Of a stretch of DNA of 33,345 nucleotides, positions 10,337-33,345 are shown piece by piece (position 1 is the stretch's first letter; each line of letters opens with the position of its first letter). The translations under genes and the position numbers were made by a program. This DNA is from Minisyncoccota bacterium. GTDB lineage: Bacteria; Patescibacteriota; Minisyncoccia; Phycocordibacterales; UBA918. The stretch is from the NCBI GenBank assembly GCA_022841645.1, contig JALHRC010000001.1, forward strand, positions 1 through 33,345, in the 5' to 3' direction. The notes beneath the pieces were generated by a model, which saw only the letters and a program-made list of their open reading frames with translations, had not been told where the DNA came from and searched no databases.

Positions 10337-10436
10337 ATTGATTCCCCTGAGCCGCCTTAGCTCAGTTGGTAGAGCAACGGTTTTGTAAACCGTAGGTCGT
10401 CAGTTCGAACCTGACAGGCGGCTCAGGGGAATCAAT
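10337..10436 (+). repeat. 21-bp perfect inverted repeat formed by the tRNA acceptor stem plus 14 flanking bp each side
   Basis: ATTGATTCCCCTGAGCCGCCT (10337-10357) is the exact reverse complement of AGGCGGCTCAGGGGAATCAAT (10416-10436). Confidence 0.95.
10351..10423 (+). tRNA. tRNA-Thr (anticodon TGT)
   Basis: Full cloverleaf: GCCGCCT/AGGCGGC acceptor, GCTC..GAGC D-arm, ACGGT-TTTGTAA-ACCGT anticodon arm, GTCAG-TTCGAAC-CTGAC T-arm, discriminator T. Confidence 0.95.
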
Positions 10437-28502: not shown

Positions 28503-30248
28503 CTATTTCCGCACACTGATTTCTGCGAGGAGGTGGTTCCCCAGTTTATCGAGGGTAGTTTCCTCTGAGGTGCCGTCGCGACTCTCGAGGGTGAGCGTTT
28601 TGGCCGCCACTTCTTTGTCGCCGATCACGACGAAGTAGGGAAGTTTGGCTTGCTTGGCGGAGCGGATTTTCTTGCCTAGCGATTCGTTATCACTATCAAA
28701 GGTAACGCGGATACCGATGGCCTTCAGGGCTTGATAGACACCCTGGGCATACTCGTTATGGCTATCGGCTACCGGAATGATCCGCACTTGCTCAGGCGAG
28801 AGCCAGAGCGGGAATGCCCCGGCGTAGTGCTCGACAAGGATACCCAAAAAACGATCGGGCGAGCCAATAAGAGCGCGATGAATCATCACTACGCGTTCTT
28901 TCTCCCCCTTTTCGTTGGTGCACGTCAGGTCAAAACGCTCGGGCTGGATGCGGTCCACTTGGATAGTAGAAATTTGCCATTGCCGACCGAGTGCGTCGAC
29001 CGCCATAATGTCGAGCTTGGGACCGTAGAAGGCTGCTTCACCCGTAACTGGTTTATATTCAACGCCAGCTTGCTTCACTACCTCCTCTAGTTCTCGCTCG
29101 GATCGTTCCCAGTCGGCATCAGTGCCAAGATACTTTTCTTTGTTTTCAGGGTCACGCAGCGATAGACGAATCCAGTAGCCGATTTGGTAAGTGGCGAGTG
29201 CTTCCTTTACGACCTCGAGTACTTTAACCAGCTCGTCCTTCACTTGTGCTTCTCGGCAGAAGATATGGCCGTCGTCTTGCGCAAAAGCGCGGAGGCGAGT
29301 GAGGCCAGAGAGCTCACCAGGGCGCTCGTCGCGGTAGAGGTTCGCAAAGTCGCTGTAGCGGATAGGCAGGTCGCGGTAGCTGCGTGGTCGCGAATCGTAG
29401 ATCTGGGTGTGCTGTGGGCAGTTCATCGGTTTGAGAAACATTTCGTCCTCAACGTACTGCGAGCGCACCGACAACATATCCTCTTTGTATTGATCGTAGT
29501 GCCCAGAACATTTAAAGAGCTCAGCTTTATTGATGTTGGGAGTATGAACCTCACCAAAACCGAGTTTCTCGTTGAGTTCCCGCGAGTAGTTGATAATCGC
29601 ATTTCGCACGATGTTGCCGCGCGGGGTCCATAGCGGCATACCGCTGCCTACCAGGTCGGAGAAGGTAAAGAGATCAAGTTCTTTACCTAGTTTACGATGG
29701 TCACGCTTTTTGGCTTCTTCGATGTGATGCAGGTAGGCATCCAGTTCATCTTTTGTGTTGAAGGCCAGGCCGTAAATGCGGGTGAGCATCGGCCGCTTCT
29801 CATCGCCACGCCAGTAGGCACCAGCGACTTTGTCGATTTTAAAGGCATCCATGTCGAGGTCTTTGTTGGGGTGCTCACAGTGGCCACCGCGGCAGAGGTC
29901 GGTAAAACCGCCGCAGGTGTAGAGCGTAATGGCTTCGCCGCGGGCCGCGATTTCTTCGATGAGCTCGAGTTTGTACTCGTTGCCTGCAAACGCCGAGCGT
30001 GCCTCGTCGACGGTGACTTCGCGATGTTCCCAGTCAGCCCATTTGTTTACTAGTTTCTTCATGGCTTTCTGCACGTCCTTAAGACCGTCATCCCCCAGGG
30101 TAGGGCCGCCAGAAAAATCGATGTCGTAGTAGAAGCCGGTATCGATAGCGGGACCGAGGGTAAGTTTGGCGTGCGGAAACTGCTCCACGACTGCAGCGGC
30201 GAGGAGGTGAGCTAAAGTATGGCGCTTGTTTTCTAGGGATTGTGACAT
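28503..30248 (-). CDS. thrS: Threonyl-tRNA synthetase lacking the TGS domain
   Basis: RHTLAHLLAAAVVEQFPHAKLTLGPAI, MNCPQHTQIYDSRPRSYRDLPIRYSDFANLYRDERPGELSGLTRLRAFAQDDGHIFC. Confidence 0.95.
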   Translation of the reverse strand: MSQSLENKRHTLAHLLAAAVVEQFPHAKLTLGPAIDTGFYYDIDFSGGPTLGDDGLKDVQKAMKKLVNKWADWEHREVTVDEARSAFAGNEYKLELIEEIAARGEAITLYTCGGFTDLCRGGHCEHPNKDLDMDAFKIDKVAGAYWRGDEKRPMLTRIYGLAFNTKDELDAYLHHIEEAKKRDHRKLGKELDLFTFSDLVGSGMPLWTPRGNIVRNAIINYSRELNEKLGFGEVHTPNINKAELFKCSGHYDQYKEDMLSVRSQYVEDEMFLKPMNCPQHTQIYDSRPRSYRDLPIRYSDFANLYRDERPGELSGLTRLRAFAQDDGHIFCREAQVKDELVKVLEVVKEALATYQIGYWIRLSLRDPENKEKYLGTDADWERSERELEEVVKQAGVEYKPVTGEAAFYGPKLDIMAVDALGRQWQISTIQVDRIQPERFDLTCTNEKGEKERVVMIHRALIGSPDRFLGILVEHYAGAFPLWLSPEQVRIIPVADSHNEYAQGVYQALKAIGIRVTFDSDNESLGKKIRSAKQAKLPYFVVIGDKEVAAKTLTLESRDGTSEETTLDKLGNHLLAEISVRK

Positions 30249-30365
30249 GGGGTAAGCTATAAAGAAGGTTGAATAATAGACTTGGTCCGTCCAGCGATTT
30301 GCTTAAGGGAAAAGCAAATCGGGACATAAATTCGTAATAGTCGCTACGCTCGTTTACTCATTTAA

Positions 30366-30533
30366 CAACAAACGCCCGAGCAAAAAATCGACGAGTCGAT
30401 TTTTTGCTCGGGCGATCATAGACCGCGGTTCCACCGAGCTTCCGTGTGGCATGGCCACCGGCGCTTTGTACAGATTAGGCTCTGAAGCGTCGCCTTTGCG
30501 ACTGGCGGTTGGTAGCCACCACAATCTCTGTGT
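30366..30533 (-). promoter_or_regulatory. T-box riboswitch-like leader of thrS
   Basis: CGGTGGAACCGCGGTC T-box sequence (about 30436-30421); antiterminator GCUCGG-[UGGAACC]-GCGGUC-UAU-GAUCGC-CCGAGC; upstream stems; competing terminator. Confidence 0.85.
30373..30414 (-). terminator. T-box leader terminator
   Basis: CGCCCGAGCAAAAAATCGAC-TC-GTCGATTTTTTGCTCGGGCG (20-bp perfect) followed by TTTGTTGTT on the minus strand. Confidence 0.85.
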
Positions 30534-30535
30534 TG

Positions 30536-33345
30536 CTACATCGTAACGGGTTCAGCTGTATTGTCAACCGACACACCAACATTGGCAGTAAACACCTTCA
30601 CAACATCTACTGCAATACTTGCTTCGTCATTGCGGATAGAAAGTCGCCCCTTCACTGCTATGCAACTCCCGGGGGCCAGCTTGTCTTTGTGTTCGGTGTA
30701 GGTGCGCGGGAAGAGAACCATCTCGATCGCGTCGGTCTGATCGGCCAGAACCACAAACGCCATACGATCACCTTTTTTGGTAAGGAGTTCCCGGACACTC
30801 GCCACCATGCCGGCAGTAACAACGGGGATGCCCTGTCGATTATCTTCCTTAATAGCCTTTATGCGAGGACGCTTTTCTAGCTCGGCTGCATGGGCATCGA
30901 GCGGGTGACCCGATACGTATACGCCAAGGAGCTCTTTCTCCCACGTAAGTTTTTGGATGGTAGACGCGTCGGGGGATGGTGCGAGCGCGAGGCTGTCGAC
31001 ACTGCCCTCAAGGCCACCAAAGAGGGAGGTCTGCGACGCCTCACGTCGCGCCACGGTGTCTTTGTTGAAGGCGAGCAAGGTTTCGATGTTGGCGTACATG
31101 CGTCCGCGCGAGTCGAAGCGGTCGAGAGCGCCGGTCATGATGAGCGCTTCGAGCGATTTCTTATTCAGGTTTCGGTCGTGGATGCGAGTGAGGAAATCGG
31201 AAAGTGAAGCAAAGGGGCCATTCACCTTTCGTTCGCTAATAATACTTTCGGCAATTCCTTCACCGAAGTTTTTGATGGTGGTGAGTCCAAAGCGGATCGT
31301 TTGCGTGCCGGGTACCACACTGAAGTCAGTGAACGATTCATTAATGTCTGGCGGCAGCACCTCGATACCCATGCGTTCACACTCGTGGATGATCTCGGCA
31401 ATCTTTTCCGTGTCACCTGAGTCAGCGGTGAGTACGGCTGACATGTACTCGACCGGAAAGTTGGCCTTCATGTAGGCAGTCTGATAGGCCACGCGGCCAT
31501 AGGAGGCAGCGTGCGCCTTGTTAAATCCGTAGGCGGCGAAGGGCTCAATCAGCTTCCAGAGCTTTTCACCAAGGGAAGGGGAGAGCTTACCGAATTCAGC
31601 GAAGCCCTTGAGGAGCTTGTCTTTTTCGGCCGCCATCACCTCAGGAATCTTTTTGCCCATCGCTTTGCGCAGGGTGTCGGCCTCGAGCCAGCTGTAGCCC
31701 GCGAGTTCGCGCGCGATGGTCATCACGTCATCTTGGTAGGTGATGACGCCGTAGCTGCGATCGAGGATGGTCTCCATGCGCGGGTCGAGGTAGGTCACGA
31801 GCCCTGGGTTATGCTTGCGTTCGATGTACTGCGGAATCGATTCCATCGGTCCCGGGCGGTAGAGTGCCACCATGGCGTTGATGTCGTGGATGCTCGAAGG
31901 TTTGAGTTGCTTGAGAAAGGCGGTCATGCCACTGCCATTGAGCTGGAAGAGACCCATGGTCTGTCCGGCCGCCAGAATGTGAAAAGTCTTTGGGTCATCG
32001 AGGGGAATATTTTCGATGTCGACGGTCTCGCCTCGAATGACGCGCACGCGCTTCACGGCGTCCGCCAGAATGGCGAGGTTCTTGATGCCAAGGAAGTCGA
32101 ACTTGAGGAGTCCCACCCCGTCCTCACCCACACTCTTCATTTCGTACTGCGTGATGTATTTGCCAGTTTTAGGGTCGAGCTGGATCGGTACGAAACGATC
32201 GAGTGGCTCGGGTGCGATCACGACACCCGCGGCGTGTACACCGAGGTGCCGCACGCGACCTTCAATCTGTTTAGCCAGGTCGATCACCTCCCGCGACTCG
32301 GCGTCTTTTTTATAGAGTTCGGCGAGATCCGGCTCCATCTCAAGCGCGCGCTTGATCGTCATCGGAAAGCCCTGTGCGCCGAGGGGAATTAGTTTAGCGA
32401 TACGATCACCGACCGTATAGGGGTGACCAAGGGCGCGCGCTACGTCACGCACGGCCGCACGCGCCATCATGGTGCCAAAGGTACCGATCTGCGCTACCTT
32501 GTCAGCACCATATTTGGTCTTGGTGTATTCGATGATTTCGTCGCGCCGATCGTCGGCGAAGTCCATGTCGATATCGGGTGCTGAAGGACGCTCTGGATTT
32601 AAAAAGCGCTCAAAAGGAAGTTTGTACTCGAGGGGATTTACATTCGTAATACCAAGGACGTAGGTAGTAAGCGAACCGGCCACCGAACCACGGATGGTAG
32701 TGAGAATGCCGCGCTCGCGCGATTCGCGCAACAGGTCGCCCACCACGAGGAAGTATTTCGCGTAGCCCTTGTTTTTAATTACTTCGAGCTCGTAATCGAG
32801 GCGGGTCTTCACTGTCTCGTCCTCAAGTGAAAGTCCACGCCAGGGGACGCCAGCGTACGCGGTTTCGCGCAGCTCGTCGTCGGGCTCGCGTTTGCTCTCA
32901 ATAATATAGTTAGGGAAGTACCAGTGGGTGCCGATTTCGAGTTCAACGTTACACATGTCAGCAATCCGGATGGTGTTTGCGAGAGCGTCAGGCGTTTCGG
33001 CAAATAGCTCGGCAGCGCGCGCTTGCGTGATGAAGGAAAAGTCTTCCTCCCCGCCGTGGTCGGCGCTTACGTCCACCACACCACCATTTTGGATCTTTAT
33101 CATCGTCTCGCGAGCGAGTCGGTCCTCTGGTTTTAAGTAGTAGACGTCGTGGGCGGCGACCAGCGGTGTCCCCGAAGCGCGCGCCATCTGTATGATGCGC
33201 TCCTGGTTCTTTTCGTGGTCCATGATTTCGGGATGGTGGGTGAGCTCGAGGTAACAGTCCTCGCCGTAGAGAGTGTGGTAAAAGTCGAGACGTGCGCCGG
33301 CGGTTTCGATGTCGCTGTTTTTGAGTGCCTGCGCTACTTCGCCAG
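30536..33345 (-). CDS. dnaE: DNA polymerase III alpha subunit (5' part lies beyond the window)
   Basis: RGSVAGSLTTYVLGITNVNPLEY, DIDMDFADDRRDEIIEYTKTKYG, GFNKAHAASYGRVAYQTAYMKANFP; frame open upstream of the listed Met to the window end. Confidence 0.95.
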   Translation of the reverse strand, partial: GEVAQALKNSDIETAGARLDFYHTLYGEDCYLELTHHPEIMDHEKNQERIIQMARASGTPLVAAHDVYYLKPEDRLARETMIKIQNGGVVDVSADHGGEEDFSFITQARAAELFAETPDALANTIRIADMCNVELEIGTHWYFPNYIIESKREPDDELRETAYAGVPWRGLSLEDETVKTRLDYELEVIKNKGYAKYFLVVGDLLRESRERGILTTIRGSVAGSLTTYVLGITNVNPLEYKLPFERFLNPERPSAPDIDMDFADDRRDEIIEYTKTKYGADKVAQIGTFGTMMARAAVRDVARALGHPYTVGDRIAKLIPLGAQGFPMTIKRALEMEPDLAELYKKDAESREVIDLAKQIEGRVRHLGVHAAGVVIAPEPLDRFVPIQLDPKTGKYITQYEMKSVGEDGVGLLKFDFLGIKNLAILADAVKRVRVIRGETVDIENIPLDDPKTFHILAAGQTMGLFQLNGSGMTAFLKQLKPSSIHDINAMVALYRPGPMESIPQYIERKHNPGLVTYLDPRMETILDRSYGVITYQDDVMTIARELAGYSWLEADTLRKAMGKKIPEVMAAEKDKLLKGFAEFGKLSPSLGEKLWKLIEPFAAYGFNKAHAASYGRVAYQTAYMKANFPVEYMSAVLTADSGDTEKIAEIIHECERMGIEVLPPDINESFTDFSVVPGTQTIRFGLTTIKNFGEGIAESIISERKVNGPFASLSDFLTRIHDRNLNKKSLEALIMTGALDRFDSRGRMYANIETLLAFNKDTVARREASQTSLFGGLEGSVDSLALAPSPDASTIQKLTWEKELLGVYVSGHPLDAHAAELEKRPRIKAIKEDNRQGIPVVTAGMVASVRELLTKKGDRMAFVVLADQTDAIEMVLFPRTYTEHKDKLAPGSCIAVKGRLSIRNDEASIAVDVVKVFTANVGVSVDNTAEPVTM
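30540..30567 (-). promoter_or_regulatory. Putative promoter of the thrS leader, embedded in the dnaE 3' end
   Basis: TTGACA (30567-30562), 16-nt spacer, TACGAT (30545-30540). Confidence 0.55.

Follow-up and report, generated by a model that had tools for sequence, protein, structure and literature searches.

The thrS operator of E. coli carries an anticodon mimic for the enzyme. Among T-box riboswitches, the known transcriptional ones are reported in general to depend on a long Stem I bearing an elbow-binding motif (PMC7583486), and the ileS T-boxes of Actinobacteria, which are translational, rely on a K-turn, a Stem II S-turn and a pseudoknot (PMC7583486, PMC10651847). An early survey recorded T-boxes in Firmicutes, Actinobacteria, Chloroflexi, Deinococcus/Thermus and Proteobacteria only (PMC2494555), and the models with which TBDB was built are those of Rfam together with an actinobacterial one (PMC7778990).

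We describe herein a leader found in a window of 33,345 nucleotides (the whole stretch of DNA that was analysed), which we take, with a probability of roughly 0.93, to be a threonine-specific, transcription-terminating T-box riboswitch of unusually compact design. An earlier note on this DNA had placed a T-box controlling thrS on the minus strand of the dnaE-thrS gap in a CPR-like genome. The sequence is indeed found there, both gene identities were confirmed by NCBIfam, and the Thr specifier and the gene context support control of thrS. The nearest named relatives of the ThrRS come from Ca. Kaiserbacteria and other Patescibacteria/Paceibacterota, which bears out the view taken of the genome. 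Stem I and the specifier were absent from that note and were added by the present analysis. The features are collected in Table 1.

Table 1. Features of the thrS leader and its surroundings, by position in the window
Feature	Position	Strand	Basis
T-box leader, between dnaE (upstream) and thrS (downstream)		minus	Gene identities by NCBIfam
Sigma-70-like promoter, -35 TTGACA, 16-nt spacer, -10 TACGAT	30540..30567	minus	Within dnaE, at its 3' end
Stem I domain, outer helix CAGA/UCUG (30530-30527 with 30474-30471)	30471..30530	minus	Covariation in relatives
Near-invariant core GA-UUG (30526-30522) ... CUAA (30478-30475), adjoining the outer helix		minus	Relatives
Specifier hairpin UGGUGG-CUACCAA-CCGCCA, 7-nt loop	30503..30521	minus	Covariation; RNAalifold
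Specifier triplet ACC (Thr), complement of tRNA-Thr anticodon GGU	30511..30513	minus	Loop CUACCAA
Two small hairpins within the Stem I domain, GUCGC-AAAG-GCGAC and GCU-UCAG-AGC	30479..30502	minus	First in the predicted fold; rest by inspection
Stem III hairpin CCGGUGGC-CAU-GCCACACGG, conserved AAG just before	30442..30461	minus	RNAalifold, fold
Antiterminator, A1 GCUCGG/CCGAGC and A2 GCGGUC/GAUCGC, UGGAACC bulge (30433-30427)	30406..30439	minus	RF00230 alignment, covariation, fold
UGGA, complement of tRNA-Thr(GGU) 3' UCCA (discriminator U73)	30430..30433	minus	Sequence
Intrinsic terminator, 19-bp stem and UUUGUUGUUA tail; CGCCCGAGC common to antiterminator	30363..30414	minus	Stem 30414-30373, terminator search and fold
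thrS, threonyl-tRNA synthetase, 581 aa, regulated gene	28503..30248	minus	TIGR00418, 637 bits

The promoter-like site lies directly 5' of the leader, and a similar one is found upstream of 42 of 55 thrS leaders, against 4.9% in shuffled sequences. At eight of the loci read, the thrS behind the T-box starts at the catalytic part, apparently without the N-terminal TGS/editing region.

The only Rfam family that aligns convincingly with the leader is RF00230. A search with this model, proposed in the earlier note as a check, gave a match that is significant for a whole genome (24.6 bits, E 8e-4), with the T-box bulge aligned, although the score falls well short of the gathering score of 93. When the leader was folded without the 3' arm of the terminator, the minimum-energy structure (-50.1 kcal/mol, z -2.5) contained A1, the UGGAACC bulge and A2, just as that note had drawn the antiterminator, together with the specifier hairpin, a small hairpin and Stem III. 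In the fold of the full leader (-80.1, z -6.7), a terminator of 19 bp, one fewer than previously counted, captures the CCGAGC strand. The antiterminator and terminator are thus mutually exclusive through that strand. The Stem III-like hairpin is likewise real, being recovered by both RNAalifold and the fold. One feature of the terminator, its interrupted U-tract (UUUGUUGUUA), counts against the T-box reading.

Covariation was assessed in an alignment of thrS leaders from 20 relatives, picked by the core letters and ACC without regard to pairing; its statistics cover the thrS class alone. Pairing as proposed is seen in 95.0% of the pair cells, compared with 84.0 +/- 0.8 in shuffled alignments, and fell to 28-42% when the pairing partners were slid. 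Cells changed on both sides numbered 64, where 16.6 were expected from shuffles; pairs with such changes numbered 12 against 7.4; and the covariation score was 0.414 against 0.187. Changes on both sides occurred in all six pairs of the specifier stem and in three of the six A1 pairs. RNAalifold, unprompted, recovered the specifier hairpin, Stem III and the antiterminator. The search for homologous leaders and covarying stems that had been called for thus yielded strong covariation. A larger block table of 54 distinct thrS leaders was also drawn up. Because its rows were pre-selected for pairing, the unbiased test of covariation is the 20-leader alignment, and as its automatic A1/A2 columns sometimes took the terminator arm, only the letters of the outer helix and specifier were used.

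In these 54 leaders, GAUUG is found in 49 and the facing CUAA in 51, whereas the neighbouring outer helix is freely variable and covaries. The small hairpins within Stem I differ in size and sequence among relatives. Stem III is not visible in a few thrS leaders, where 71-73 nt separate the junction from UGGN. The triplet in the specifier loop is ACC in 53 leaders and ACG in one, and thus encodes Thr in all. At the other end of the presumed ligand, the genome's tRNA-Thr(GGU) has U as its discriminator and an encoded CCA, so that its 3' UCCA matches UGGA. A second threonine tRNA gene, tRNA-Thr(UGU), lies in the same window (10351-10424), and its discriminator is likewise U.

The specifier also changes with the gene downstream. 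Leaders of aspS carry GAC in the hairpin loop (GAU in one case), and in other members of the order AUC precedes ileS and AGC precedes serS, as read by inspection, with the genes confirmed by NCBIfam for at least one representative. Before six bacterial-type aspS genes, the specifier reads AAC (by inspection; NCBIfam on representatives), which would be in keeping with a non-discriminating enzyme that also charges tRNA-Asn, and suggests that these leaders sense tRNA-Asn. The genome itself contains a second T-box (27.6 bits with RF00230) with a GAC specifier before a non-discriminating aspS, annotated by NCBIfam as aspartate--tRNA(Asn) ligase. Four aspS T-boxes are very short, with the GAC hairpin present and Stem II not visible. 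No tRNA-Asp was called among the scanned tRNA loci of the genome, a subset of its tRNA matches. At G000:C19:376-478, a gene resembling a tRNA is interrupted in its anticodon region by an insert of ~30 nt, and a 71%-identical version is present in another genome from that genus (G039:C2:480-579). The insert contains GGAUUAGAUACCCG / GGAAUAGAUACCCG, resembling letters of 16S rRNA helix 24. ARAGORN makes no call on this gene, which could have a GUC (Asp) reading.

From these features, we infer that the leader binds tRNA, senses its charge and permits read-through into thrS. Transcription would begin near 30533, the start predicted from the position of the promoter, and the specifier hairpin would present ACC to the GGU anticodon of tRNA-Thr. 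With an uncharged tRNA-Thr, the 3' UCCA would be free to pair with the UGGA of the bulge, the antiterminator would be held, and the polymerase would continue into thrS. With a charged one, the amino acid would block the UCCA-UGGA contact, leaving the terminator to take CCGAGC and stop transcription before the gene.

In its layout, the loop CUACCAA resembles an anticodon loop, with a U before and an A after the triplet, and the anticodon loop region of the genome's own tRNA-Thr(GGU) reads AUGGUAA. Hence the hairpin might instead mimic the anticodon arm of tRNA-Thr and be bound by ThrRS, the enzyme repressing itself as at the thrS mRNA of E. coli. This appears very unlikely. The triplet is the codon ACC rather than any of the anticodons GGU, UGU and CGU, and therefore lacks the GU that ThrRS reads; it is because the loop bears a codon that the idea was rejected. 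Moreover, the leaders of aspS, ileS and serS have their own codons at the same place, and a T-box antiterminator and terminator come after the hairpin.

The two remaining alternatives are both to be regarded as extremely improbable. A constitutive terminator might simply separate dnaE from thrS, the T-box letters being due to chance or left from a decayed element; a strong terminator is indeed present, and function is read here entirely from comparative evidence. Against this, the stems covary, the Thr specifier is fixed across the 54 leaders, and an antiterminator competes for the terminator strand. In addition, a promoter-like site precedes the leader, and without a switch that promoter would lead only to a stop. 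A further possibility is that the element acts chiefly at the level of translation, as do the actinobacterial ileS T-boxes with a short Stem I, whose specifier likewise sits in an apical loop (PMC7583486). However, the intrinsic terminator, which lies ~115 nt before the thrS start, shares the antiterminator's 3' arm, and no sequestrator covering a ribosome-binding site was seen. Terminators also follow the other thrS leaders examined, most of them with at least 16 pairs. A T-box that terminates transcription thus remains the reading best suited to this leader.

Similar leaders are widespread in the lineage. RF00230 matched at E <= 0.05 in 35 of 49 genomes of the same family, with none above the cut-off, and by eye these matches fall into two classes, the thrS and the aspS leaders. 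A model built from the thrS leaders of the 20 relatives (R1) gave matches in 91 of 398 genomes from the order, representing 47 of 179 genera, and outside the class it picked up thrS leaders in several further families. Among the R1 matches read, those below ~1e-8 are almost all upstream of thrS, and weaker ones are other T-boxes. Applied to 80 named thrS loci, R1 matched eight Patescibacteria contigs (Kaiserbacteria, Taylorbacteria, Lloydbacteria and other Patescibacteria). As these eight are the model's own source sequences or genomes, it is the negative side that is informative: the Bacteroidota thrS loci gave no match, with a best score of 15.7 bits (~40 non-Patescibacteria thrS loci served as the control). 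No similar element was found in phage records. The TGGCACC before thrS in a Yonathbacteria contig, and a like case at another locus (L037), were put down to chance, there being no surrounding antiterminator.

Across the phylum, RF00230 matched in 129 of 384 genomes, about a third, with 13 above the cut-off; some Patescibacteria T-boxes are therefore detectable with public models. Many of the strongest matches are long-Stem-I T-boxes before argS, argG, tyrS and proS-like genes (named by inspection). A T-box-like leader was also seen before a relative of the YbdK/glutamate-cysteine ligase carboxylate-amine ligase. The earlier note had wondered whether T-boxes were undescribed in CPR. T-boxes in the lineage extend beyond this one element, but no report of them in CPR, Patescibacteria or Parcubacteria was found in the open-access literature searched; the thrS class, for its part, would probably be missed by TBDB, considering the models on which it was built. 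Few regulators are known in Patescibacteria. With T-boxes indicated by RF00230 in about a third of those sampled, upstream of several synthetase genes, the phylum would possess a widespread response to amino-acid starvation, mostly hidden by present cut-offs.

The thrS class also puts to the test a rule of the field, whereby a transcriptional T-box must hold the tRNA by means of a K-turn together with a long Stem I, or with Stem II where Stem I is short, and in this respect the general requirement for a long Stem I counts against the T-box reading. There is little room for such a stem: the shortest leader has 71 nt from the core to UGGN. By sequence pattern only, a double T-loop motif 3' of the specifier occurs in 1 of 55 thrS leaders, compared with 10 of 15 long T-boxes of the phylum, and the S-turn AGUAG[AG] in 1 of 55, compared with 22 of 27 leaders of the aspS/ileS class and 11 of 15 long T-boxes. 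The core GA-UUG/CUAA is off the K-turn consensus in its letters, though it may form a non-consensus bend, whereas several aspS leaders read CC-NNN-GA...GA-GG, a K-turn pattern (from an illustrative scan that missed some aspS leaders). It may be that this is a minimal T-box, as short as ~110 nt when counted through the antiterminator, in which tRNA-Thr is read only through its anticodon and 3' end, the conserved GA-UUG/CUAA junction replaces the K-turn, elbow-binding motif and Stem II, and which occurs in many Patescibacteria below the Rfam cut-off; we consider the chances of this to be even. If so stripped-down an RNA works, the essential core of a T-box is much smaller than thought, which matters for how T-boxes evolved and for compact tRNA-responsive switches.

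With the class I transcriptional T-boxes of RF00230, the thrS element has in common the UGGNACC bulge between A1 and A2, Stem III with a preceding AAG, a mutually exclusive terminator, a specifier that is a codon of the downstream synthetase and a UGGN that corresponds to the tRNA discriminator. In contrast to them, it appears to lack the long Stem I, the interdigitated T-loop elbow motif, the Stem II S-turn and the IIA/B pseudoknot, and has no recognisable K-turn. The ultrashort-Stem-I ileS T-boxes of Actinobacteria (M. tuberculosis, N. farcinica) likewise hold the specifier in an apical hairpin loop and have no elbow-binding motif; unlike them, the thrS element has a terminator at its 3' end, seemingly with no K-turn, S-turn or pseudoknot. 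The aspS, ileS and some other T-boxes of the order are nearer to the actinobacterial plan, with a K-turn pattern and S-turn sequence, yet are also terminator-ended. The glyQS glycine T-boxes resemble the thrS element in being transcriptional and without Stem II, but retain a long Stem I with a K-turn and elbow-binding motif, neither of which is apparent here. The E. coli thrS operator and this leader both place a hairpin with an anticodon-like loop before thrS, except that the loop here holds a codon. The element is canonical in its 3' half only; judged from its sequence, it is a compact variant, common in this corner of Patescibacteria, in which that half is joined to a Stem I of a different, compact design.
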